24,305 nucleotides of DNA from a virus, in IMG/VR virus record IMGVR_UViG_3300020437_000888, positions 1 to 24,305 of that record, one strand, 5' to 3'. Below, in pieces: positions 4,576 to 24,305 of this stretch. The first letter of the stretch is position 1; each line of letters starts with the position of its first letter. The position numbers were made by a program, and so were the translations under genes. The notes beneath the pieces were generated by a model. The model did not search any database. It worked only from the letters and a program-made list of their open reading frames with translations, and was not told the origin of the DNA.

Positions 4576-5886
4576 ATGCCTAGAAAAATTGACATAGTAC
4601 CATTCGGAGACAATGACCTAACATCTGATTATCTTTTTACCCAAAGGGAATATTATGTTGCCAACCCAGAAGTATATCCAGAAGAAGACTTGCCAAAGCC
4701 AGTTGATATGTGGTATAATAAACCATATTGGGGTAAGGTAGACACCAAACAAAGATTAATTATACCAGACCCTGATGCTTTGTTACCAATTTCTGGAGAG
4801 TTGGAGGTTATAAATTTTGTCGCTGACGCATATTTTTCATTTAGAAACTTTGTTTTAGATGCCACCAGCAAATTTAGAACTTCAATGTCCTCTTTCATTG
4901 ATTTTGATAACCCAAAAAAAGCACATCAGGATACGATACTAGATTACAAAAATTATTTTGAAAACACATTAGAGCCTGGTTTCATTAATACATTTTTATC
5001 AGAAAAAGATAAATCGGAAATTAAAAACTTTGAAGATTATGCGTCGGAATATATTCTTTTCGTTGATGTAAACCCAGACATTCCTCACACTTTAGCTGGC
5101 TTTATATCTTCACCTCTCGTAAGCTATAGACATAGCGGTATGATAATAGAATTTGCTACAGACGACTATGATGATGATGGTAACAAATGGGACAACTTTT
5201 TGTCAAATGATTTTTTTGATGATTACGTAAGAATAGCTGCAAGTTTTGGATTTTATGTTAGTAAACATGTACCATGGGCCATTGCTGCAAATTTGAATTC
5301 ACAGAGAATGAGGCAATATATGATTAATTACGGTGTAACAAATATTGCTAATAATTTCAATTTGAATTTTTTACAAGCTGAATTTATTAGTTTTGAATCA
5401 TTTAAAAAATACATGTATTTGGCATACTCATCATTTATTACATATAGACCAAGAACCGAAAGAGTAATATATAATAATTGTATAAAACAAAGAATATCAG
5501 ATTCCTCTTTTAAAACCATCAGAGAGATATATTTTAGACCATTAGAATTGAATTTTTTAGTACCTGATTATCAACAATTTACTAGGATATATTCTGATAT
5601 TTTTCTTTTAAAGATATATGTTAAAATAAGATTAAAAGAAGAAAAAATATTATTGAATAAAAGACAACAAGAAATATTAATGATAAATATATATAAAACA
5701 AAAGGTGATATATATAATAAAATTGATACATTATCAAAATACATCGCTTCACAAAGAAAAAATAGATTTAATAAGTTGACAAGAAAAACAAAGTCAGTTA
5801 GTATGACCGAAGAAATGGCACCGGCATCATCATACTTCAGCGGAATGGATGGATCTGGTGGCGGTGGCGGAACAACAGGATATTAA
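4576..5886 (+). CDS. Probable virion structural protein, 436 aa, Gly-rich C-terminus
   Basis: No family recognised. The protein is acidic and aromatic-rich, with no signal peptide or membrane helix. It ends in a Ser/Gly-rich tail (GSGGGGGTTGY), a feature often seen at the ends of phage virion proteins. All 21 arginines are AGA or AGG. No Shine-Dalgarno is visible upstream of the ATG, where the sequence reads AATTAGATT, and the 33-nt gap to the hub gene holds no alternative start, so translation may depend on read-through from the upstream gene. Its last 110 nt contain a consensus-type promoter (5776-5804), so this gene appears to be the last of the structural block. Role inferred from position. 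Confidence 0.5.
   Translation: MPRKIDIVPFGDNDLTSDYLFTQREYYVANPEVYPEEDLPKPVDMWYNKPYWGKVDTKQRLIIPDPDALLPISGELEVINFVADAYFSFRNFVLDATSKFRTSMSSFIDFDNPKKAHQDTILDYKNYFENTLEPGFINTFLSEKDKSEIKNFEDYASEYILFVDVNPDIPHTLAGFISSPLVSYRHSGMIIEFATDDYDDDGNKWDNFLSNDFFDDYVRIAASFGFYVSKHVPWAIAANLNSQRMRQYMINYGVTNIANNFNLNFLQAEFISFESFKKYMYLAYSSFITYRPRTERVIYNNCIKQRISDSSFKTIREIYFRPLELNFLVPDYQQFTRIYSDIFLLKIYVKIRLKEEKILLNKRQQEILMINIYKTKGDIYNKIDTLSKYIASQRKNRFNKLTRKTKSVSMTEEMAPASSYFSGMDGSGGGGGTTGY
5776..5804 (+). promoter_or_regulatory. Sigma70-type promoter inside the end of the structural gene
   Basis: TTGACA at 5776-5781, a 17-bp spacer, and TAGTAT at 5799-5804. The -10 hexamer is identical to that of the promoter before dnaE (21167-21172). 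It lies within coding sequence about 84 nt before the family A polymerase start, so it could separate replication-gene transcription from the tail genes. Because it is intragenic and AT-rich, a chance match remains possible. Confidence 0.45.
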
Positions 5887-5887
5887 A

Positions 5888-7075
5888 TTGCTTTTTCAGA
5901 CATTTGATGAAAAAAACAAATGTGCTTTAATTTATAAAAAAGGCACGTTTCAAGAACAAATTACAGACAACTGCACAAAAACATGGTCTTATGCTACTTA
6001 CCTACAAGATAAGGAGATTGAATATGCTAATCTTTACACCGGGGGTCAATCCCTGGAGCAGCTTTGCCCAGAAAGTATTAGAGGGGAGTGGTCCTCCGTC
6101 CAAACAAGAATCAAAGCGGCCCTTAAAGCAGCAAACGAAGTAGGCTTAAATATTGATGATTATTGTATTTATGAATTTATCCCAAAACATTACCTCCAAA
6201 CATTTGCAGAAATAAAAAATAAAATCTGCGAGGATGTTTTTGGTAGTTATTCAAAACCCACAAATTACGATCAGTTGTTGAAGATAAATAAAGTTATCGC
6301 AGACATAAGAACAAAAAGAGTAAATATAGATCCAACACAGATAGAACGTCTTACAATTCAAGATCGTAACATGTTTAAAACTGTGAGCAACTGTAAGCCT
6401 TATATCGATTATGATATGTTTAAAACTGTTACTGGTCGACTGGCAACAAAACCAAATTCGTTTCCAGTTATGACACTTCCAAAAAAATATCGTCAAGTTC
6501 TTACTCCCACTAATGACTGGTTGTTTGAATTAGACTTTAATGCTTGTGAGTTACGAGTCGCGTTGGCCCTCCTTGGTCATGACCAACCTCAAGAAGATTT
6601 ACACGATTGGAATCTTAAAAATGTATTTACTAGAACGAAAAGTAGAGAAAACGCAAAGAAAAGGATTTTTTCTTGGCTTTATAACCCAAATAGCACCGAT
6701 GACAAGGTAGATAAGATTTATGACCGTAAAATACTAAAAGATATGTATTTTGATAAAGTTTTAGGTAAAGTTTATACGCAGTTTGGTAGAGAAATTGATT
6801 CTGATGAGGATCATGCGGTTAATTATATTGTCCAGTCTACAGCCGCAGATTTGGTTTTTGAACAAATGTATGGAGTTTGGGAGTTTCTCCAAGGAAAAAA
6901 ATCTTTTGTTAAGTTCTGTAATCATGATAGTTTGATTATTGACTTATCAGAAGAAGATCAACATGAGATAAATAATATTTCAAAACTATTTAGTAATACA
7001 AGATTCGGCAAGTTTAAAGTAAACCACGAAGGCGGTAAGAACTGGTCAGAAATGAAACCATTACACATTAAATGA
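5888..7075 (+). CDS. Small family A DNA polymerase (polymerase domain only), 395 aa from TTG
   Basis: Residue numbers are from the TTG at 5888. The family A palm/fingers motifs are all present: TGRLATKPNSFPVMTLP before motif A; motif A LDFNACELRV with Asp 216 and Glu 220; an O-helix with Arg 253, Lys 257, Phe 261 and Tyr 265 at exact i+4 spacing; TQFGRE; QSTAADLV; and motif C NHDSLIID with Asp 347. Motif C has Ser where most members have Glu (HDE). About 170 residues precede the TGRL motif, too few for a standard 3'-5' exonuclease domain, and no exonuclease motifs are seen. I prefer TTG because AGGA at 5878-5881 lies 6 nt upstream; an ATG at 5849 in frame would overlap the structural gene by 38 nt. 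Role: DNA synthesis, probably repair, gap filling or translesion work next to the DnaE encoded later. The tubulin-like gene follows after 7 nt. Confidence 0.85.
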   Translation: MLFQTFDEKNKCALIYKKGTFQEQITDNCTKTWSYATYLQDKEIEYANLYTGGQSLEQLCPESIRGEWSSVQTRIKAALKAANEVGLNIDDYCIYEFIPKHYLQTFAEIKNKICEDVFGSYSKPTNYDQLLKINKVIADIRTKRVNIDPTQIERLTIQDRNMFKTVSNCKPYIDYDMFKTVTGRLATKPNSFPVMTLPKKYRQVLTPTNDWLFELDFNACELRVALALLGHDQPQEDLHDWNLKNVFTRTKSRENAKKRIFSWLYNPNSTDDKVDKIYDRKILKDMYFDKVLGKVYTQFGREIDSDEDHAVNYIVQSTAADLVFEQMYGVWEFLQGKKSFVKFCNHDSLIIDLSEEDQHEINNISKLFSNTRFGKFKVNHEGGKNWSEMKPLHIK

Positions 7076-7082
7076 GGATTAA

Positions 7083-7931
7083 ATGCAAACCGTCATAGGT
7101 TTGGGTAAAGCGGGTTGTAATATAGCTGATGCTCTCTCTGCCTACCCACAATACGAAATAAAAAAAATAGATGTAGGTTTAAAAAAGACTAAAACAACAT
7201 TTGGTCTTAAGCATCAAGACGGCCCCGAGCTTTATGAAAAAAGCAATATGCCGAAAGGTATAAACAACTTTCTAGAGGGGGTGATGCCTGAAACTTTATT
7301 TATTACAAGTTGCGGTGCTGTCTCTGGTGCTTCTTTAAAGATATTACAGAAAATACACACTAAAACAAAAATACGAGTAATGTATATTGTTCCACAAAGA
7401 GATGATCTAGTGGGTGAAAAACTTCTACAAAATAACTTACTTTTCAATGTGTTTCAAGAGTATGCTCGATCAGGATTGTTTGATCGTGTTTTTTTAGTTG
7501 ACAATTCTAAATTATCTGATATAATGGGACCTGTACCAATAATGAAATTTTGGGACTCGATAAATAATTTAATTGTTACAACGTATCACATGTTAAATGT
7601 ATTTCAAAACACACAACCAGTAACAACCACGCAGACAAAGCGTATTTCTACTGCGCGAGTGTCAACTTTTGGATTATTAGATTCACAAAATAATCAAGAA
7701 AAAATGTTTTTTGGGCTTGACATCCCAAGAGAGAAGTGTTATTATTATGGAGTTCCTAAAAAACAATTGGAAGAAGATCCTAATTTAATGGAGGTTATTC
7801 GTAAAAATTTAAAATGTAATGTAGAACATGAAAAAATGAAAACTACTTATTCAGTTCATTCAACTGATTATAATGAGCTTATAGCTTACTGCGAAAAAAG
7901 CAGCACTTTAATACAACAACTAGCAGTGTGA
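7083..7931 (+). CDS. Divergent tubulin/FtsZ-like protein, 282 aa
   Basis: The N-terminus VIGLGKAGCNIADAL (residues 4-18) matches the first strand and T1 loop of FtsZ/tubulin (G-x-G-x-A-G-x-N). Residues 71-88, TLFITSCGAVSGASLKIL, sit where FtsZ has its GGGTGTG phosphate loop; the loop is altered but keeps Gly 78 and Gly 82. The following IRVMYIVPQRDDLVGEK, then a helix, then DRVFLVDNSKLSD (134-146) and FWDSINNLIVTTYHML (156-171) follow the FtsZ order (strand, P-F-x-x-E-G-like turn, N-x-x-L strand, central helix). The length fits phage tubulins such as PhuZ (about 315 aa) better than full FtsZ. The role could be positioning replicating DNA or capsids. The alternative is another Rossmann-like nucleotide-binding protein. 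GAGGA at 7074-7078 provides the SD. It lies between a polymerase and the SSB gene. Confidence 0.55.
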   Translation: MQTVIGLGKAGCNIADALSAYPQYEIKKIDVGLKKTKTTFGLKHQDGPELYEKSNMPKGINNFLEGVMPETLFITSCGAVSGASLKILQKIHTKTKIRVMYIVPQRDDLVGEKLLQNNLLFNVFQEYARSGLFDRVFLVDNSKLSDIMGPVPIMKFWDSINNLIVTTYHMLNVFQNTQPVTTTQTKRISTARVSTFGLLDSQNNQEKMFFGLDIPREKCYYYGVPKKQLEEDPNLMEVIRKNLKCNVEHEKMKTTYSVHSTDYNELIAYCEKSSTLIQQLAV

Positions 7932-7970: not shown

Positions 7971-8720
7971 ATGGGAATTAATATGGAGAAAATGCGTGCT
8001 CGTATGGAGGCGCTACAAGGAAACGGAAATAATCGAAAGAATAACTTTTGGAAACCACAGGAGGGTGAGCAAACTATTCGTCTAGTAGCTCCGTCAGATG
8101 GCGATCCCTTCCGAGATTATTGGTTTCATTATGACGTAGCGGGTGAGCCTGGATTTCTTTCGCCAAAGCGTAACTTTGGTGAGGATTGCCCACTCGATGA
8201 CTATGTACGTGCCCTATGGCGTGAAGGCTCTGAAGAGTCAAAGCGTGTTGCACGTAAGCTAGGTGCGAAGCAGCGTTTCTTTGCTCCGGTCCTTATTCGA
8301 GGACAAGAAGAAGAAGGTGTAAAGGTTTGGGGATTCGGCAAGCGTGCTTACGAAACTCTACTTGGCCTTGTTCTTAACCCAGAATATGGTGATATTACAG
8401 ATCCGTCTGAAGGCACTGATTTGGTTATCACTTACTCAAAGCCAGCGGGTGCATCTTATCCTGAAACCAAGATCACGCCACGCCGCCGTTCATCTCTTCT
8501 TCATGAAGATGAAACACAGGCTCGCGCTCTTATGGAGTCCGTTCCTGATTTTGATGAGGTATTTTCGGATGCTCGTCGCTCCTCTACGCAAGTAGCGGAT
8601 ATTCTTGATCGCTTCCTCAACACTGTTGATGAATCGGTTTCTAACCAACCAGCGGCCGCTACCTCTGCTGGAACGGTTTCGGATGTCGATAAGGCATTCT
8701 CTGAATTGCTAGGTAGCTAA
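7971..8720 (+). CDS. T4 gp32-like single-stranded DNA-binding protein, 249 aa
   Basis: The order FWKPQEGEQTIRLVAPSDGDPFRDYWFHY, then FLSPKRNFGEDCPLDDYV matches the OB-fold core of gp32-type SSBs of T4-like and marine phages. The C-terminus, after an Ala/Ser/Thr linker, is acidic-hydrophobic (DVDKAFSELLGS), the usual partner-binding tail. Gp32 holds a zinc through Cys/His residues; here a single Cys (in EDCPLDDY) remains, so zinc binding is probably lost. Role: coating ssDNA at forks and recombination sites and loading helicase and recombinase. A strong SD (AAGGAG, 7957-7962) precedes the ATG; a second ATG lies 12 nt further in. Codon use differs sharply from the structural genes: all 20 Arg are CGN, as expected of a very highly expressed protein. 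Confidence 0.85.
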   Translation: MGINMEKMRARMEALQGNGNNRKNNFWKPQEGEQTIRLVAPSDGDPFRDYWFHYDVAGEPGFLSPKRNFGEDCPLDDYVRALWREGSEESKRVARKLGAKQRFFAPVLIRGQEEEGVKVWGFGKRAYETLLGLVLNPEYGDITDPSEGTDLVITYSKPAGASYPETKITPRRRSSLLHEDETQARALMESVPDFDEVFSDARRSSTQVADILDRFLNTVDESVSNQPAAATSAGTVSDVDKAFSELLGS

Positions 8721-8878: not shown

Positions 8879-9805
8879 ATGAGCAATCAGATTATTGGTA
8901 ATTTAAAATTATCTCAACCAATCCCGGTTCTAGGTCAATTGGGAAAATTATCAAAAGTCAAAGTTAATGTCAAGAGCTTGGTCAATCGTGAAACAAAAGC
9001 ATCCACGATAAAAAAATATCTTAAGGATGGATTTGATTTTAAGAAGTTTGTTCCTCCAGTCGTCGCACAATATCCTGATGGAAAGCAATACCTTTTGGAT
9101 GGTGATCACCGAAGAGCAATGTGGGAAAAAACGTTTCCTTTCAAGCCTATGATGCCTTGTTTTATTATTAATGTTGTGAACGATCAAGAGTACCACCTAT
9201 TGTTCGTGGAGATTAATGCCAAGAATCGTAAAACAGCAAACAAAGAAGAGGTTTTTGTTCATGAAGTTCTAGCAGGTATTCCAAGCGCTGTAACTACAGC
9301 GAGAAACCTTAAGAACGCTGGACTAAGTGTTTATGGCGCACCTGGACCACTAGGAACTGTGGGCGCACTAAACTCTCCTAATGTAACAGTTGGGGCGTTT
9401 CGAAATGCAATGAAGCATGGCGGCACCTTTGGTGTTAACGTATCACGCGCTAGGGCAGCAGCGCAAATCGCGTGGCCAACTAATCTGAAAAAGATTAATG
9501 GCGAACTATTAGAGGCACTTACTATTTGTTATTCTTTGTATCCAGACTTAAGCAATGGAAGCAAGATACAAACTGACTTTGAATTATTTTTAGATAGAAT
9601 AGTCGGGCCAGAAAACCAAAGCAATATTGCTTATAAGTATAAGTCCGAAGGTGGCCGTGTACATCATAGACATGGTGAATCAATTGCAAAGGGTATGATG
9701 ATGCATTTTCGCAAAGTTGATTTACAATCTCGTGGTGGGTGTAGCCTCCAGTGGAAACAAAAAACAATTAATTTAAAGCCTTTAACTAAAATGTTAGAAG
9801 ATTAA
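8879..9805 (+). CDS. ParB-fold (ParB/Srx superfamily) protein, 308 aa
   Basis: Residues about 25-110 show the ParB N-terminal pattern: KVKVNVKSLVNRETKASTI, a positively charged helix, FVPPVVAQYPDGKQYLLDG, then DGDHRRAMW (74-82), which carries the G-x-H-R type signature of this superfamily, followed by MPCFIINVVNDQEYHLLFVE. Members include CTPase DNA-partition proteins, phage ParB-like nucleases and transcription regulators, so activity cannot be fixed. Residues 120-308 match nothing I know; there is no obvious helix-turn-helix, but the region is basic and Gly/Ala-rich near 150-190. The gene has its own consensus promoter, a structured leader and a terminator, unlike its neighbours, so it appears to be expressed independently. 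It may bind the palindromes in its own control region. SD AAAGGAG is 7 nt before the ATG. Confidence 0.7.
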   Translation: MSNQIIGNLKLSQPIPVLGQLGKLSKVKVNVKSLVNRETKASTIKKYLKDGFDFKKFVPPVVAQYPDGKQYLLDGDHRRAMWEKTFPFKPMMPCFIINVVNDQEYHLLFVEINAKNRKTANKEEVFVHEVLAGIPSAVTTARNLKNAGLSVYGAPGPLGTVGALNSPNVTVGAFRNAMKHGGTFGVNVSRARAAAQIAWPTNLKKINGELLEALTICYSLYPDLSNGSKIQTDFELFLDRIVGPENQSNIAYKYKSEGGRVHHRHGESIAKGMMMHFRKVDLQSRGGCSLQWKQKTINLKPLTKMLED

Positions 9806-10160: not shown

Positions 10161-10496
10161 GTGAAAAAATGGAAAAAAGGAGAAGAGGGTTTTGAAAAAG
10201 CCTTACAAGACATAGCAAGTAGATATAAAGGTCTTGGAGGTGGACCAAGTAGTGAATCTTCAGTTCATGCATCAAAGCAAGATATAAGAGAGGGATATGC
10301 TTGGTTTTGGTCTGACAATAGCGACGTGTCTAACTTAATTCAACGATCTAAAGATTATATTTTAGAGATCAGAGACCATGGTGATAATATTTCATTTAAG
10401 CTAGACAAAGCTGGCTATAGAGGTCCAATATACGCATTTAGACCAGATAGATTACTAAATGAAAATTTAGATGAGGAGGAAAATGAGATTGGCTAA
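10161..10496 (+). CDS. Hypothetical protein, 111 aa
   Basis: No family recognised. The protein has a basic N-terminus (KKWKKGEEGFEKAL), a Gly/Ser linker near residues 26-35, a core with YAWFWSDNSDVSNLIQRSKDYILEI, and an acidic C-terminus. No membrane segment is present. The GTG start is supported by AGGAG (10150-10154) 6 nt upstream. Its stop overlaps the start of the recombinase gene by several nt, so the two are probably translationally coupled. The overlap and consistent SD spacing are the reasons to accept it as a real gene. Confidence 0.6.
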   Translation: MKKWKKGEEGFEKALQDIASRYKGLGGGPSSESSVHASKQDIREGYAWFWSDNSDVSNLIQRSKDYILEIRDHGDNISFKLDKAGYRGPIYAFRPDRLLNENLDEEENEIG

Positions 10497-11595
10497 AAAG
10501 AAATCCGCTGGTCGTCTATCGATAGACCAGATGAGAAAACTAATAAATAAAAAAGCAGGACAAGAAGTTTCTGTTGACTTAACAGATCCAGACAACCCAA
10601 CCACTGTAAAACAATGGATTCCAACAGGTGCTCGTTGGCTAGATGGCATTATTTGTCGTGGCAAATTAGCTGGTATTCCAGTGGGTAAGGTCACAGAGAT
10701 TGCTGGGTTAGAAGCTAGTGGTAAGTCTTATATGGCTGCTCAAATAGCAGGTAATGCCCAGAAAATGGGTATTGATGTTGTTTATTTTGATTCAGAGTCA
10801 TCACTTGACTTTAACTTTTTGGAGAAAGCAGGATGTGATCCTTCAAAGATTCTTTATGTTCAAGCAACTTCAGTAGAGTTTGTTTTAGAAACAATCGAGG
10901 AATTACTTTCTTCCACAGACAGCCAGTTTCTTTTTATTTGGGATAGTTTGGCACTTACTCCTTCTATTTCAGATGTGGAGGGCGACTTTAATCCACAGTC
11001 AACGATGGCTGTAAAGGCTCGCATTTTATCAAAGGGAATGTCAAAATTAACTGTTCCTATTGCAAATAGTCAGTCTACTTTCCTTGTGTTAAATCAGTTG
11101 AAGGCAAACATTACTCGTTCGCCATCTGAAGCACTTACCACTCCTTACATGACACCGGGTGGTAAGGCATTAATTTACACTTATTCACTGCGCATTTGGC
11201 TGACTCGACCAAAAGCAAAGGCATCTTTTGTAACTGATGACAAAGGCTATCGCATTGGCAACACTGTAAAGGTAAAGCTAGAAAAGTCTCGTTTTGGCTC
11301 TCAAGGCCGTCAATGTCAATTCAAAATACTTTGGGGTGATAGCGTTGGTGTAGCTGACGAAGAAAGCTGGTTTGATGCTATTCAGGGATCAGAACATCTA
11401 GATCGTGCGGGTGCTTGGTATGAGCTTAAGTTTGAAGACGGCACGAGCGAAAAATTTCAGTCTGCTAGATGGATTGATAAATTACAAGATGACAAGTTTA
11501 AAGCACGCGTTCTTGAAATAATGGATGAAGAGGTTGTTCGTAAGTTTGATAAAAGAACGGGCGATGCCACTGAATTTTATGAGGAAAGTGCGTAA
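10489..11595 (+). CDS. uvsX: UvsX/RecA-type recombinase, 368 aa from TTG
   Basis: Numbering is from the TTG. Walker A GLEASGKS (73-80), the hydrophobic strand FLFIWDSLA with Asp 152 as Walker B, a VVYFDSESSLD strand (MAW-type Glu region), and QLKANITRSPSEALTTPYMTPGGKAL (L2-like DNA-binding loop and following helix) place this in the RecA/UvsX family. Function: ATP-dependent strand exchange in recombination and recombination-primed replication, working with the gp32-like SSB. The start is ambiguous: ATG codons at 10471 and 10483 are in frame, but AGGAGG at 10474-10479 is only 3 nt from the second and is 9 nt from the TTG, giving MAKKKSAGRLSI. The start overlaps the previous stop by 8 nt. The C-terminus is acidic. 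Confidence 0.85.
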   Translation: MAKKKSAGRLSIDQMRKLINKKAGQEVSVDLTDPDNPTTVKQWIPTGARWLDGIICRGKLAGIPVGKVTEIAGLEASGKSYMAAQIAGNAQKMGIDVVYFDSESSLDFNFLEKAGCDPSKILYVQATSVEFVLETIEELLSSTDSQFLFIWDSLALTPSISDVEGDFNPQSTMAVKARILSKGMSKLTVPIANSQSTFLVLNQLKANITRSPSEALTTPYMTPGGKALIYTYSLRIWLTRPKAKASFVTDDKGYRIGNTVKVKLEKSRFGSQGRQCQFKILWGDSVGVADEESWFDAIQGSEHLDRAGAWYELKFEDGTSEKFQSARWIDKLQDDKFKARVLEIMDEEVVRKFDKRTGDATEFYEESA

Positions 11596-11604
11596 GGATA
11601 AAAC

Positions 11605-12579
11605 ATGAGCGAGAGAGTCATCATTATTGATGGACTAAATATGTTCCTACGAAGTTACATTGTAGTCCCACAACTTTCAAAAGAAGGCCAGCCCATTGGT
11701 GGAACAACTGGCTTTCTTAAGTCTCTTCAAAAGCTTTGCCGAGAAATGAAACCAACACAGATCGTTGTTTGTTGGGATGGTCGCGGAGGAAGCAGAAAGC
11801 GCAAACAACAAAACAAAAACTATAAAGAAGGTAGGGCGCCCATTCGCCTCAACCGTAATTTTAAAGTTTTAACAGAAGAGCAAGAAAAAGAAAATAAAAT
11901 CTGGCAGCAAGAAAGAATTTGTGAGTATTTAAATAACTTTCCAGTTATGCAGTTGATTGCAGATGAAGTTGAGGCTGATGATATTATATCTTATATGTGT
12001 CGCTACAGTAGTTTGCGAGATAGTCAAAAAATTATAGTTTCAAGCGATAAAGATTTTTATCAGCTGCTTGATCAAAAGACTATTTTATATCGTCCTGTGC
12101 AGAAAAAGCTTTTAACACAAAATAGTATAATAGATGAGCACGGCATTCATCCAAATAACTTTGCCCTTGCTCGTGCTATAGTTGGAGACAAGTCAGATAA
12201 TTTAGATGGAGTTCCCGGTATTGGACTAAAAACGGTTGCTAAACGCTTTCCTTTCTTTGAGAAAGAGGAGGATGTTTACATCAATGATTTGATAGAGTTC
12301 TGTGAAAATCAAGAAAGTAATGCGAAAGCTTTCATTTCCATAAAAGAGAACAAACCGCTTATTCAGTCTAATTATAACCTGATGCAACTGTATAGTCCCA
12401 GTCTTTCGACACAGACTAAACAAAGCATCGAATGGATTATTGACAACTTCGAACACACCTTCAATAAGACTCAAACGTACAAGATGATGTTAGAGGATGG
12501 GATCAATGAGATCAATTGGAATGCTATGTTCGAAAGTTTCGCAAGAATCCAAAGGGATAAAAAGGAACTTAATAAATGA
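11605..12579 (+). CDS. FEN-family 5'-3' exonuclease / flap endonuclease (T4 RNase H type), 324 aa
   Basis: The N-terminal IIIDGLNMFLRSY has the first metal-binding Asp (D9). CWDGRGGSRKRKQ supplies D58 and the basic helical arch. EVEADDIISYM carries the E-x-x-A-D-D cluster (E123, D125, D126 region). VSSDKDFYQLL provides D148 and D150. GDKSDNLDGVPGIGLKTVAKRF provides the last Asp pair and the helix-hairpin-helix DNA-binding motif (about 194-215). Function: removal of RNA primers and 5' flaps during lagging-strand processing. It is a separate gene from the family A polymerase, unlike bacterial PolI where they are fused. AAGGA upstream supports the ATG. It follows uvsX by 9 nt and overlaps the next gene by 4 nt (ATGA-type overlap). 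Confidence 0.9.
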   Translation: MSERVIIIDGLNMFLRSYIVVPQLSKEGQPIGGTTGFLKSLQKLCREMKPTQIVVCWDGRGGSRKRKQQNKNYKEGRAPIRLNRNFKVLTEEQEKENKIWQQERICEYLNNFPVMQLIADEVEADDIISYMCRYSSLRDSQKIIVSSDKDFYQLLDQKTILYRPVQKKLLTQNSIIDEHGIHPNNFALARAIVGDKSDNLDGVPGIGLKTVAKRFPFFEKEEDVYINDLIEFCENQESNAKAFISIKENKPLIQSNYNLMQLYSPSLSTQTKQSIEWIIDNFEHTFNKTQTYKMMLEDGINEINWNAMFESFARIQRDKKELNK

Positions 12580-12953
12580 AGAAATTAAAGCCAATTTTTA
12601 TTGAAAATAGCAAACTGCCTGTTTGGTTATCGAAGATTGCCCCTATTGATGTGTGGGCATTTTCTGCTGGGCCTTTTGTTGTTTGTCGCGGAGAGTTAAG
12701 TGAAAAAGTTAAAACTCATGAAACAATTCACTTCGTTCAACAATTAGAAATGTTGTTTGTCCTTCAATGGATTTTGTACGGTTTATTTTATGTTATTGGT
12801 CGCTTTACAAAGGGAAGTTGGAAAGCGGGTTATTATGCAAACCCGTTTGAAGTCGAGGCATATGCAAACGACATAGATCCAGATTATCTGGAAGAGAGAA
12901 AGTTTTGGGCCTGGACAGGTTACATGAGGAACTTGTTTGGTCGACAAACTTAA
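12576..12953 (+). CDS. Membrane-associated HExxH putative metallopeptidase, 125 aa
   Basis: HETIH at residues 48-52 followed by FVQQLE gives the zinc-binding HExxH helix. A hydrophobic stretch, FVLQWILYGLFYVIG (61-75), is a likely membrane helix. NPFEVEAYAND (89-99) then offers a Glu as a possible third zinc ligand, as in gluzincin-type enzymes. The spacing HExxH to NxFExEAY recurs in small phage and bacterial proteins of unknown substrate. Activity is inferred; catalytic residues are present but the fold is very small. The start overlaps the FEN nuclease stop (ATGA), so it is coupled to the recombination genes. It could act on membrane or envelope proteins, or be a degenerate structural relative. 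Confidence 0.6.
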   Translation: MKKLKPIFIENSKLPVWLSKIAPIDVWAFSAGPFVVCRGELSEKVKTHETIHFVQQLEMLFVLQWILYGLFYVIGRFTKGSWKAGYYANPFEVEAYANDIDPDYLEERKFWAWTGYMRNLFGRQT

Positions 12954-13584: not shown

Positions 13585-14943
13585 ATGGACAGTTTAGGAA
13601 TTTTTGGAAAGAGTTTCCAAGAAAACATGTGTAAGCTCATGCTTTACGACCGGTCTTATTGTGACCAAATGCAAGAAGTGCTAGATGTAAAATATTTGGA
13701 GCTAAAGTATCTTCAAGTTTTTACCGACAAACTTTTTAATTACAAAAAAGAATACGGCATTCATCCAACAAATGACACCCTCAACTCGGTTCTCAATACG
13801 GAACTAACAGATGAAAATGAAGTAGTCCAAAAACAAGTGATGGATTATTTTGTTAAAGTCCAGGCGTTTCCCGAGATCCAAGATACAGAATATATCGTGT
13901 CAAAGTCGGTGGATTTTTGTAGGAAACAAGTTCTTAAAAAAGCCATGATGAAATCAGTGCCACTTCTGAATAAGTGTTCGTTTGAAGAAATAGAGAAACT
14001 AATATCTGATGCTCTACGTTTGGGTGTAAGTAATGACCATGGTTATGATTATATCAAAGACTTTGAAGCAAGGTTTATTGAAAGAGCCCGTAATCCAGTT
14101 TCAACTGGGTGGGAAAAGATAGATAAAATCACCAAAGGTGGTCTGGGCCAAGGCGAACTTGTGGTGGTCGTTGCTCCAACAGGTGCGGGTAAATCTCACG
14201 TTCTCGTACATCTTGGCGCTCAAGCACTAAAGCAAGGTAAAAATGTTGTCCATTTTACGTTAGAATTAGCAGATACGGCCGTTGCACAACGATATGATGC
14301 CTGTCTTACTGGTTTTCAACTTGACGACCTTATAAATCAAAAAGAAGCAGTTTATGAGGAAATCAAGGAAATAGACGGTCAACTTATTGTAAAAGAATAT
14401 CCAACAAAATCTGTATCTCCTGTGACTCTTAAAAATCATCTAGAGAAGATCAGGCAAACAGAAATGGAAATCGATATGATCATCGTTGATTACGGTGATT
14501 TGCTAAAAAGTTCAACAGTTCGTAAAAATTCCGAGAAAAGACATGAATTAGAATCTATTTATGAAGAACTACGCGGAATTGGTCAAGAGTTCGGTTGTCC
14601 TATCGTAACTGCTTCACAAACCAACCGGAAGGGTCTTAACGAAGAAGTAATCACAATGGAGTCAATCGCAGAGGCATTTAACAAGTGCTTTGTTGCGGAT
14701 TTAATTATAAGCCTGTCTAGAACTATAAAAGATAGAAACTGCAATATTGCGCGTATCTTTGTAGCTAAAAACAGGAATGGGCCTGATGGCATTGTGTATT
14801 CTGCGTTCATGGACACATCAAGCGTAGCAATAAAAGTGTTAGAAAGAGATGATGTTGTGAAGTTACAGCAGCAGCAGCTGGCAAAAGAAAAACAAAAAGA
14901 ATTTTCAAAAGCCCGAGAAGTCTTCAGAAATATGAAAAAATAA
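13585..14943 (+). CDS. DnaB-type replicative helicase (T4 gp41-like), 452 aa
   Basis: The C-terminal RecA-like domain has TGWEKIDKITKGGLGQGEL, Walker A APTGAGKS (197-204), then VVHFTLELAD (motif H1a-like, Glu), Walker B IIVDYGDLL with Asp 302, and CPIVTASQTNRKG (motif H3 with Gln), followed by ISLSRTIKDRN and FVAKNRNGPDG with the arginine-finger region. The N-terminal part (1-150) is the hexamer/primase-interaction domain and is poorly conserved. It would unwind duplex DNA ahead of the DnaE polymerase. No primase is seen in this window. The C-terminus is Gln/Lys-rich. A promoter lies immediately upstream and the RNR gene follows. Confidence 0.9.
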   Translation: MDSLGIFGKSFQENMCKLMLYDRSYCDQMQEVLDVKYLELKYLQVFTDKLFNYKKEYGIHPTNDTLNSVLNTELTDENEVVQKQVMDYFVKVQAFPEIQDTEYIVSKSVDFCRKQVLKKAMMKSVPLLNKCSFEEIEKLISDALRLGVSNDHGYDYIKDFEARFIERARNPVSTGWEKIDKITKGGLGQGELVVVVAPTGAGKSHVLVHLGAQALKQGKNVVHFTLELADTAVAQRYDACLTGFQLDDLINQKEAVYEEIKEIDGQLIVKEYPTKSVSPVTLKNHLEKIRQTEMEIDMIIVDYGDLLKSSTVRKNSEKRHELESIYEELRGIGQEFGCPIVTASQTNRKGLNEEVITMESIAEAFNKCFVADLIISLSRTIKDRNCNIARIFVAKNRNGPDGIVYSAFMDTSSVAIKVLERDDVVKLQQQQLAKEKQKEFSKAREVFRNMKK

Positions 14944-21196: not shown

Positions 21197-24100
21197 ATGT
21201 CCGAAAGAACACAAAGTAGTATTCCGTTTGTAGGCTTGCACGCTCACAGCGGAACGGGTAGCCCTTTTGATGGACTCGGCTATCCTGGCGAACATATGGA
21301 CTTTGCCTATCAAAATGGTAATGATGCTCTGGCTTTAACTGATCACGGCAACATGAACGGCTTTGCTTATCAGGTACAACATGCTCAAAAAATGATGAAG
21401 GAAGGCAAAGACTTCAAGCCTATCTTTGGTGTTGAAGCTTATTTCTTACCTAGTATTGAAGAATGGCGCCAAGAGTTAGAGCGCGCCAAAGAAGATAAGA
21501 AAGCAAAGAAATCGATTGATAAGTCGGCCTCTGGAACGACTATTGAGAATGAAGAAAACAAAAGAGAAGTTAAAAACATTCTTAATCGTCGGCGCCATCT
21601 TATCTTGTTAGCGCAGAACCAAAAAGGTCTAAACAATATCTTTTCTCTTGTATCAAAGTCATACAGAGAAGAAAACTTCTATCGCTTCCCGCGTATTGAT
21701 TACGCTATGCTGAAAGAACACAATGAAGGTGTAATCGCAGCTTCGGCCTGTCTTGGCGGTGTATACGCTGGGAATTTCTGGGAAAACCGTGAAGAGGGTG
21801 AAGAAGCTGTTCTCAATGCCATGCGTGATACAACGAGGAATATGGTTGATATCTTTGGTGATCGCTGGTATGGCGAACTTCAGTGGAACAATGTACCCGA
21901 ACAACATCAATTAAACCGTCTAATTGTAAAAGTTTGTGATGAATTTGGCGTCGAATTGATTTCTACGGCTGATAGTCACTATCCAAACAGAACGGCTTGG
22001 AAAGATCGAGAACTTTACAAAAGACTAGGTTGGTTAAGTAGAGGTATGCCAAAGTGGGCAACAAACACAGAACTCCCAGAGGGCGTCGAAGAAATTGGTT
22101 ACGAATTGTTTCCAAAGAACGGCGATCAAATGTGGGAGGCATATAAAGAATATTCAGAAAAAGCAGGAGTACAATACGATGATAATATTATCCGAAGATC
22201 TATTGAAAGAACGCATCAGATTGCTCACGAAAGAATTGAACGGTTTATGCCAGACAACACAGTTCGCCTACCAAGCTTTGTGGTTCCCGCTGGACAGACT
22301 CCCGATAGAGCCCTTGTCGCTGCTTGTGTGGATGGGCTTAGAGGGCTTGGCCTAACAAACAACCCAGACTATGTTCAACGATTAAAAGAAGAAATGAATA
22401 TTATCAGCGAGCGTGGCTTTAGCAAATATTTCTTAACTATGAAGTCTATCGCTGATAAAGCAACAGAAGTTCAGCTAACAGGTGCTGGACGTGGTTCTGC
22501 GGCTGGCTCTTTAGTTGCTTATGCTCTTGGCATCACACAAGTTGATCCTATCAAATATAATCTTCTATTCTCTCGTTTTATGACGAAAGATTCGAAAGAC
22601 TATCCTGATATCGATTATGATGTTTCTAATCCAATGGAACTTAAAGAAATGTTGATTGATGAGTGGGGTGGCAATACTGTTGTGCCTATTTCCAACTTCA
22701 ATAAACTTCAGTTACGTTCTTTGATTAAAGACATCGCAAAGTTCTATGAGGTGCCGTTTACAGAGGCCAATGCTGTTACTTCGAAGATGCTGGCTGAAGC
22801 AACGCCGATTGCAAAAAAGAAACATGGTATTAAGGCTGGTGTATATGCGCCTACATTTGAAGAGGTGATGGAATATTCCGATTCGCTCAAAGCGTTTCTC
22901 CGAAAGTATCCAAAGATTAAAACACACGTTGAGGCTTTGGTCGGTGAAGTTCGCTCTGTGTCTCGTCACGCTGGTGGTGTGGTTATTGGCGAAGAATTAG
23001 ATAAGTATATGCCGCTTATTAACTCTGGCGGTGTAACCCAAACGCCTTGGTCCGAAGGGCAGCATGTTCGACAACTAGAGCCAATGGGTTTTATTAAGTT
23101 TGATATTCTTGGTCTTTCTACTTTGAAAATGATTGAGGGGGCTGTCTATCACATCTTAAAGAAGCAAGGAAATCCAGATCCTACTTTCGAGGATATTAAA
23201 AAGTTTTATGATGAAAACTTACATCCTGATAGCATTAATCTGAAAGACAAGAAGGTTTATGAAAATATCTTTTGGAAAGGTAAGTGGGCAGGTATCTTTC
23301 AGTTCGCAGAGAAAGGCGCGCAGAACTTTTGTAAAAGAACAAAGCCAAAGAATATTATTGATATTGCTTCCATCACTTCTATCTATCGTCCTGGTCCGCT
23401 ATCAGCGAACGTGCACGAAGATTTTGTAGAGGCAAAAGAAAACCCAAGGAGTATTCGTTATGGTCATGATATTGTAAAAGAAGTTACAAAAGAAACTTAT
23501 GGCTTTCTTATTTTCCAAGAGCAGATTGCTTTATTGGCCCACAGATTGGGCAAAGACTTATCTCTGGATGAAGGTAACAAGCTCCGTAAGCTGTTAACTA
23601 AAAAGGGCACTGGAGCAGCTGCAGAACAAAAAAATAAAATAAAGCTTAAGTTTATTCAAGGATGTATCGATAAAGGTTTAAAGGAACAATGGGCAGAAAA
23701 AATGTGGGCGAAGTTTGAATACTTCTCCGGCTATGGTTTCAATAAATCCCATGCTGTTTCATATTCTATTATATCTTTTCAATGCGCTTGGCTATTTAAT
23801 TATTATCCTGATTGTTGGATGGCAGCTTTCTTGGACAAAGAACCAGAGAGTAGAAAAGAAAAAGCAATCAATATAGCAAAGAAGTTTGGGTTCAAGCTAG
23901 AGCCTGTCAATATTAATAAGTCCAGTTCTGTCTGGGATATTGGCGAGGACCAAAGAACGCTCATTCAGCCCTTAACTTCGATAAAAGGATTAGGAGACAA
24001 AGCAATTGAACAAATCATCGAACATAGACCATTTAACTCTGTTGAAGAACTTCTCTTTAGCAAAGAGATTGTATATTCTAAACTCAATAAGAAAGCATTG

Positions 24101-24305
24101 GATGTCCTCATCAAAGCAGAGGCAGTAGATGAGCTAATAGACGATAGATTTAAAAACCAAAAACATTTCTGGTTATCTGTTGCAGATAGTAGGCCCAAGA
24201 CTAAAAAGAAGTTGGCCGAGAACATAGAAGAGTTTAGGGACACTGAAGATTTTACTAGAGATGAATATATCGAAACAAAAACTAATATTACTGGTATGTT
24301 CCCCT
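21197..24305 (+). CDS. dnaE: DNA polymerase III alpha subunit (family C, DnaE) with PHP domain, 3' partial
   Basis: The frame stays open to the window end (over 1030 codons), so the C-terminus is missing. The N-terminal PHP domain has GLHAHSG (His 15, His 17), LTDHGNMNG, GVEAYF and ADSHY, with metal-ligand residues kept. A Lys/Glu-rich insertion of about 45 residues follows GVEAYF. The polymerase core has GAGRGSAAGSLVAYALG, the catalytic PDIDYD (Asp 471, Asp 473), SRHAGGVV, KFDILGL (third Asp, 636), YRPGPLS, FQEQIALLA and YGFNKSHAV. A helix-hairpin-helix, KGLGDKAIEQII, follows at about 930. This is the main replicative polymerase of the phage, using the helicase, SSB and RNR encoded nearby. 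SD GGAG is at 21188-21191. Confidence 0.95.
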   Translation, partial: MSERTQSSIPFVGLHAHSGTGSPFDGLGYPGEHMDFAYQNGNDALALTDHGNMNGFAYQVQHAQKMMKEGKDFKPIFGVEAYFLPSIEEWRQELERAKEDKKAKKSIDKSASGTTIENEENKREVKNILNRRRHLILLAQNQKGLNNIFSLVSKSYREENFYRFPRIDYAMLKEHNEGVIAASACLGGVYAGNFWENREEGEEAVLNAMRDTTRNMVDIFGDRWYGELQWNNVPEQHQLNRLIVKVCDEFGVELISTADSHYPNRTAWKDRELYKRLGWLSRGMPKWATNTELPEGVEEIGYELFPKNGDQMWEAYKEYSEKAGVQYDDNIIRRSIERTHQIAHERIERFMPDNTVRLPSFVVPAGQTPDRALVAACVDGLRGLGLTNNPDYVQRLKEEMNIISERGFSKYFLTMKSIADKATEVQLTGAGRGSAAGSLVAYALGITQVDPIKYNLLFSRFMTKDSKDYPDIDYDVSNPMELKEMLIDEWGGNTVVPISNFNKLQLRSLIKDIAKFYEVPFTEANAVTSKMLAEATPIAKKKHGIKAGVYAPTFEEVMEYSDSLKAFLRKYPKIKTHVEALVGEVRSVSRHAGGVVIGEELDKYMPLINSGGVTQTPWSEGQHVRQLEPMGFIKFDILGLSTLKMIEGAVYHILKKQGNPDPTFEDIKKFYDENLHPDSINLKDKKVYENIFWKGKWAGIFQFAEKGAQNFCKRTKPKNIIDIASITSIYRPGPLSANVHEDFVEAKENPRSIRYGHDIVKEVTKETYGFLIFQEQIALLAHRLGKDLSLDEGNKLRKLLTKKGTGAAAEQKNKIKLKFIQGCIDKGLKEQWAEKMWAKFEYFSGYGFNKSHAVSYSIISFQCAWLFNYYPDCWMAAFLDKEPESRKEKAINIAKKFGFKLEPVNINKSSSVWDIGEDQRTLIQPLTSIKGLGDKAIEQIIEHRPFNSVEELLFSKEIVYSKLNKKALDVLIKAEAVDELIDDRFKNQKHFWLSVADSRPKTKKKLAENIEEFRDTEDFTRDEYIETKTNITGMFP

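Follow-up and report, generated by a model that had tools for sequence, protein, structure and literature searches.

Organisation of the locus

The window, i.e. the whole stretch of DNA analysed here, comprises 24,305 nucleotides of an IMG/VR virus record, and the genes for FTSZL, PolA, gp32, UvsX, the exonuclease, the helicase and Pol III alpha described below lie on its forward strand. The gene of interest, FTSZL, is located at positions 7083–7931, starts with ATG and encodes a protein of 282 residues with a predicted tubulin/FtsZ fold. A GAGG sequence (7074–7077) lies just 5' of the start codon and overlaps the stop codon of the preceding gene, which encodes a bare family-A DNA polymerase (PolA) of 395 residues (5888–7075). 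The next gene downstream encodes a gp32-type single-stranded DNA-binding protein (SSB; 7971–8720), identified by matches to Pfam gp32 (E 1.9e-12) and phrog_1192 (1.3e-22). The initial annotation placed FTSZL between a family A polymerase and the SSB gene, and the Pfam matches on both sides (DNA_pol_A upstream, E 1.6e-12) confirm that location. Beyond gp32 the window contains, in order, a ParB-like gene, a UvsX/RecA-type recombinase gene (10471–11595), a gene for a 5'-3' exonuclease of the FEN type (11605–12579), a DnaB/gp41-type helicase gene (13585–14943; phrog_19, E 2.3e-72) and a ribonucleotide reductase gene. The ParB-like assignment, at 8879–9805 between gp32 and UvsX, is a weak match to the N-terminal part, and the gene is absent from this position in relatives such as L010. 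Between the exonuclease and helicase genes (12576–12953) lies a gene for a small protein that matches the PHROG 'protease' family phrog_15610 (E 5e-20) and is conserved in relatives.

The arrangement around FTSZL is conserved in related viral contigs, although the sampled loci were ranked by their likeness to the queries and the counts that follow are no unbiased census of linkage. FTSZL is present at 78 of the 79 polymerase loci with room downstream, the contig at the sole exception ending about 470 nt past the polymerase. It is followed by gp32 in 216 of 217 loci and by UvsX in 126 of 126, while the FTSZL start overlaps the polA stop in 102 of 219 loci and lies within 50 nt of it in another 67. 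The earlier impression that the gene is seated in a replication module is therefore upheld, polA preceding it and gp32 following it at nearly every locus. Conserved gene order is, nonetheless, frequent among replication genes whose products make no physical contact. Specific coevolution between FTSZL and PolA was not found, the mirror-tree correlation being lower for this pair (r 0.50) than for FTSZL and UvsX (r 0.63).

Distribution and selection

Relatives of FTSZL were recovered from at least 101 IMG/VR contigs with single-sequence patterns, and from at least 595 with profile patterns. From these, 257 complete sequences were reduced to 128 at less than 80% identity, and it is to this non-redundant set that the counts out of 128 given below refer. 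Close pairs have a dN/dS of about 0.06–0.16, a sign that purifying selection preserves the gene. Since the reading frame is conserved in so many viral contigs, selection is evident and the N-terminal glycines G6, G8 and G11 are kept, the signal amounts to more than chance; an origin in a fortuitous motif is ruled out, and FTSZL is a real gene under purifying selection.

The family appears to have escaped previous notice. FTSZL had no match among the cultured phages of INPHARED, no PHROGs family matched the window protein, no match above 16% identity was obtained in the BFVD viral structure library, and no description of the family was found among the open-access papers searched. The best explanation of the records is that they derive from uncultured, myovirus-like viruses of bacteria; judging from the metagenome sources, as opposed to contig by contig, these phages are inferred to be mostly marine. 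FTSZL is single copy in all ten of the records of 130–190 kb. The lone bacterial match, in the WOR-3 metagenome-assembled genome CP070664.1 (L088), is a piece of phage DNA bordered by runs of N, and an origin as a host or prophage gene was rejected on this basis; the presence of the piece in this 'chromosome' is probably a scaffolding or binning error.

Predicted structure of FTSZL

An AlphaFold2 model of FTSZL, calculated from an alignment of 36 family sequences (A1), has a mean pLDDT of 94.5 and a pTM of 0.92. It presents a complete two-domain tubulin/FtsZ fold, with a Rossmann-type N-terminal domain, a central helix H7 and a C-terminal alpha/beta domain, the elements running S1-H1-S2-H2-S3-H3-S4-H4-S5-H5-H7-S7-hairpin-S8-H10-S9-S10. 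The FtsZ order of strands and helices, which had previously been inferred by eye, is borne out by this model. Helix H7 comprises 23 residues (153–175; 7539–7607), among which H169 is kept in 122 and N172 in 123 of the 128 relatives. It is followed by a coil leading to S7 (7608–7658), where FtsZ has the T7 loop and helix H8, and then by the C-terminal domain S7-S8-H10-S9-S10 (7659–7904), in which a short hairpin replaces H9.

When the model was compared with the PDB using Foldseek, the best 50 matches were all to FtsZ, TubZ or tubulin, with E values from 3.9e-13 and TM scores (TMq) up to 0.74; these matches share 10–14% identity with FTSZL and cover the whole protein, both domains included. Evidence independent of structure was obtained with hhalign, in which A1 aligned with nine FtsZ sequences over 236 collinear columns (E 4e-5, probability 70), the match being weaker and confined to the N-terminal domain when the most divergent FTSZL members were added (probability 39, E 3e-4). 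Single sequences carry less signal. Indeed, the window protein alone matched Pfam Tubulin (PF00091) with an E value of 0.17; 14 of 36 relatives matched this family, the best with an E value of 0.0014 and all below the gathering cut-off, and sequence searches of the PDB returned only noise. It is thus the modelled fold, not the motif, that provides proof of a relationship to tubulin. The proposal of a divergent tubulin/FtsZ-like gene is supported with high confidence at the level of the predicted fold.

Catalytic motifs and putative nucleotide site

Two published signatures mark the superfamily: GTP is bound through GGGTG[T/S]G and hydrolysed with the help of the T7-loop motif NxDxx[D/E] (PMC12583498). 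The FtsZ-type N-terminus GLGKAGCN, noted initially, is present at residues 6–13 of FTSZL; the corresponding T1 loop (G6-L-G-K-A-G11-C12; 7098–7118) follows a strand formed by residues 2–7 of the model, and is well conserved (G6 in 125, G8 in 127, G11 in 125 and C12 in 122 of 128 relatives). Similarly, the degenerate phosphate loop CGAVSGAS is present at residues 77–84 as described, and the T4 equivalent, S76-C-G-A-V-S-G82 (7308–7328), replaces GGGTG[TS]G, a motif found in none of the 128 relatives as against nine of nine FtsZ controls. In some relatives T4 is GGGxISG-like, the form in the window being SCGAVSG. The alteration extends beyond that originally claimed, in that neither the catalytic T7 loop nor helix H8 is present: NxDxx[DE] occurs in the T7 region of one of 128 relatives and in all nine FtsZ controls, and the model has neither an H8 after H7 nor an H9 after S7. 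The spacing between H7 and S7 (N161 to R192) is identical in 126 of 128 relatives, and no conserved acidic position was found among them within residues 173–190. Together with the lack of any close match in PHROGs, INPHARED or BFVD, these observations bear out the suggestion of a new tubulin-superfamily branch with altered GTP contact.

Conversely, residues at the positions that contact the guanine base are retained. N141, within VDNxxL (codon 7503–7505), is kept in 118 of 128 relatives and aligns with the S5-H5 asparagine (PND) of FtsZ, while W157-x-x-x-N161 in H7 (7551–7565) is the equivalent of F-x-x-x-D in FtsZ and aligns with its AND/ADN motif; N161 is kept in 119 of 128, and position 157 is aromatic or histidine in 110. 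We take N141 to correspond to tubulin N206, a guanine contact, and W157-x-x-x-N161 to tubulin Y224-x-x-x-N228, which provides guanine stacking and contact, this equivalence of N141 and N161 resting on profile alignment rather than a bound structure. The most conserved block of the protein lies elsewhere, in the H4 motif FNVFQEYARS (residues 121–130; 7443–7472), where Q125 is invariant and R129 and S130 are each kept in 127 of 128. Overall, the analysis shows that the guanine-base signature has been retained, and that the GTP loop, the T7 catalytic motif, H8 and H9 have been lost.

Rows of the alignment without N141 usually lack N161 too; the joint loss affects nine rows, or about five losses on a FastTree tree, a number too small for a sign test to reach significance, and the T1 and T4 loops are often degraded further in the lineages without both residues. 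Such joint loss and decay is as expected if the residues share one nucleotide site, which from the sequence comparison would appear to be used by most, though not all, FTSZL lineages. In the relatives without both asparagines (L262, L271, L278, L258, L218, L261, L265, L279 and L247) the gene still lies beside polA. It is possible that the proteins of these relatives are nucleotide-free scaffolds.

DNA polymerases of the phage

The PolA encoded upstream of FTSZL probably starts at TTG, as judged from relatives and the sequence; an ATG at 5849 would give a protein of 408 residues. Its AlphaFold2 model (pLDDT 95.5) has Klenow-type polymerases as Foldseek matches, and almost no sequence match was found in cultured phages. 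The protein is without a 3'-5' exonuclease domain, motif A being DFNACELR and motif C HDS. A second polymerase gene, encoding a DnaE-type DNA polymerase III alpha subunit (21197–24305), runs off the end of the window; it matches PF07733 (3.1e-51) and the finger (1.9e-34) and PHP (3.8e-26) families, and has PHP, palm, finger and HHH domains.

A DnaE-type Pol III alpha is encoded by nine of the ten large relatives (130–190 kb), for which reason the role of main replicase probably falls to the phage's own DnaE-type Pol III and not to the bare PolA. PolB and a bacterial beta clamp were not found in these ten records, and a T4-type clamp gave no match in them using a search model whose positive control was poor. 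The idea that bare PolA is the only polymerase, with FTSZL replacing the sliding clamp, was dropped given the Pol III alpha genes in the window and in the large relatives.

Proposed role and alternative explanations

The best reading of these data, to which we would assign a probability of about one half, is that FTSZL represents a new minimal branch of the tubulin superfamily, probably non-hydrolysing, that works with the replisome. The protein would be made together with PolA, as the overlapping or adjacent start codons suggest, and may bind guanine nucleotide in most lineages. Judging from the missing motif, it would not hydrolyse nucleotide via the T7 route. The absence of H8 and T7 from the model argues against a canonical longitudinal protofilament interface, and FTSZL is not expected to drive canonical dynamic protofilaments. 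Instead it may associate with the replisome as an accessory or scaffold, and nucleotide occupancy may switch or stabilise it. The end of H4 (Q125, R129, S130) and the end of H7 (H169, M170, N172), both strictly conserved and placed together from the order of secondary structure in the model, form a probable candidate docking patch for a partner in replication such as PolA, gp32 or UvsX. Since the main replicase is probably the DnaE-type Pol III, the tasks of PolA and FTSZL would lie in maturing the lagging strand, in repair or in synthesis linked to recombination. A more specific version, in which FTSZL is an obligate non-motor part of the replisome that binds nucleotide, is catalytically dead and is partnered with bare PolA and SSB in a phage with its own Pol III alpha, is put forward tentatively, and we would not bet on it at even odds.

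The foremost alternative is a cytoskeletal role, in which FTSZL would form filaments in the manner of PhuZ or TubZ and position or segregate phage DNA during replication. The fold is the same as that of FtsZ and TubZ, the nucleotide base residues are conserved, the phage tubulins PhuZ and TubZ form polymers and serve to centre or partition the DNA of phages (PMC4244570, PMC3678025), and the phage actin AlpC is needed for efficient phage replication (PMC4446434). However, FTSZL has neither GGGTG[TS]G nor the T7 motif, H8 is absent from the model, there is no C-terminal tail, and no conserved adjacent gene for a TubR-like partner was noticed among polA, FTSZL and gp32 in relatives; a cytoskeletal role is therefore considered unlikely, at perhaps half the weight of replisome association. 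Alternatively, FTSZL may have some other function, for example as a regulatory GTP sensor, a membrane tether or in packaging, and be merely co-transcribed with replication genes. Operon position by itself is no proof of function and there is no PolA-specific coevolution, but the invariance of the polA-gp32 position across deeply diverged relatives, and the frequent translational overlap with polA, render this improbable. Slightly less probable again is that FTSZL mimics FtsZ or tubulin, capping or poisoning the FtsZ filaments of the host and so blocking division during infection. Many phages encode FtsZ inhibitors, and a copy of the fold without the T7/H8 bottom face could conceivably serve as an end cap; identity to FtsZ is, however, only 10–14%, and nothing points to conservation of a longitudinal face like that of FtsZ. 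Moreover, genes for host takeover tend to be variable and early, whereas FTSZL belongs to the core, lodged between polA and gp32.

That FTSZL is unrelated to tubulin, and is instead an enzyme of the Rossmann type that binds nucleotide or a domain resembling dehydrogenases, is strongly disfavoured, and we give this explanation very little credence. The N-terminal GLGxxGC does resemble GxGxxG, and single members have weak Pfam matches to TrkA_N and NAD-binding families. Against this, the leading PDB matches belong without exception to the tubulin superfamily and span both domains, the first named functional match of another fold in BFVD is an epimerase with an E value of 3.5e-3 and a TM score of 0.34, and the model contains H7 and a tubulin-like C-terminal domain. 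The fold and profile searches and the AlphaFold model, which the initial annotation had proposed as checks, hence returned a tubulin/FtsZ fold as opposed to a plain Rossmann domain without H7.

To our knowledge, the bacterial and phage members of the tubulin superfamily that have been well studied all form GTP-driven polymers, which serve in movement or division. What is new here is a large branch of the superfamily whose site is degenerate and whose genes occupy an unexpected position in the genome. A widespread branch that retains the base pocket, has discarded its phosphate and catalytic loops along with some of the polymer interface, and is confined to a replication operon would exemplify the use of this fold for a different purpose; a fold known from the cytoskeleton may thus have been adapted to work next to a DNA polymerase. 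FTSZL would in addition be a core replication gene, overlooked by present annotation libraries, in a common group of uncultured and mostly marine phages. Because it is small and predicted to be ordered, the protein can be tested directly.

Comparison with known systems

FTSZL has in common with FtsZ, the bacterial and archaeal cell-division GTPase, the two-domain fold with H7, the T1 loop and the guanine-contact positions in S5 and H7, and FtsZ provides the best fold matches as well as the collinear profile alignment. Identity is 10–13%, however, and FTSZL is without GGGTG[TS]G, the T3 GAGxxP loop, the T7 NxDxx[DE] motif, H8, H9 and the C-terminal tail; moreover, it is encoded in a phage replication operon as opposed to a division cluster. 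In comparison with alpha/beta-tubulin, the 'VDN..L' and 'Y/W-x-x-[IL]-N' motifs of FTSZL match N206 and Y224/N228, but FTSZL is far shorter and has neither the C-terminal H11-H12 nor GGGTG[TS]G.

TubZ of Bacillus plasmids and phages (fold match E 1e-12) and PhuZ, or phiKZ TubZ, of jumbo phages are, like FTSZL, superfamily proteins of mobile elements. TubZ and PhuZ make filaments and have a catalytic T7 aspartate (PMC3678025). The PhuZ of 201phi2-1 retains GGGSGS and its own T7 acid, unlike FTSZL, and the FTSZL profile did not match this single sequence (gp59) in hhalign (probability 0.1). A search for chimallin in the ten large FTSZL relatives, run with no working positive control, gave no match. 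The closest BFVD models are other phage FtsZ-like proteins (A0A6J5RW92, A0A8S5UFG9 and A0A8S5USZ9), which have a similar fold (TM up to 0.77) but share 12–14% identity with FTSZL, are larger (347–452 residues) and belong to another family. Other divergent superfamily members, FtsZl1 (Makarova and Koonin 2010, PMC2875224) and Misato (PMC9871819), provide earlier examples of drift away from the cytoskeletal core; unlike FTSZL, the former is a large multi-domain protein that retains the GGGTG(S/T)G loop, and the latter is eukaryotic.
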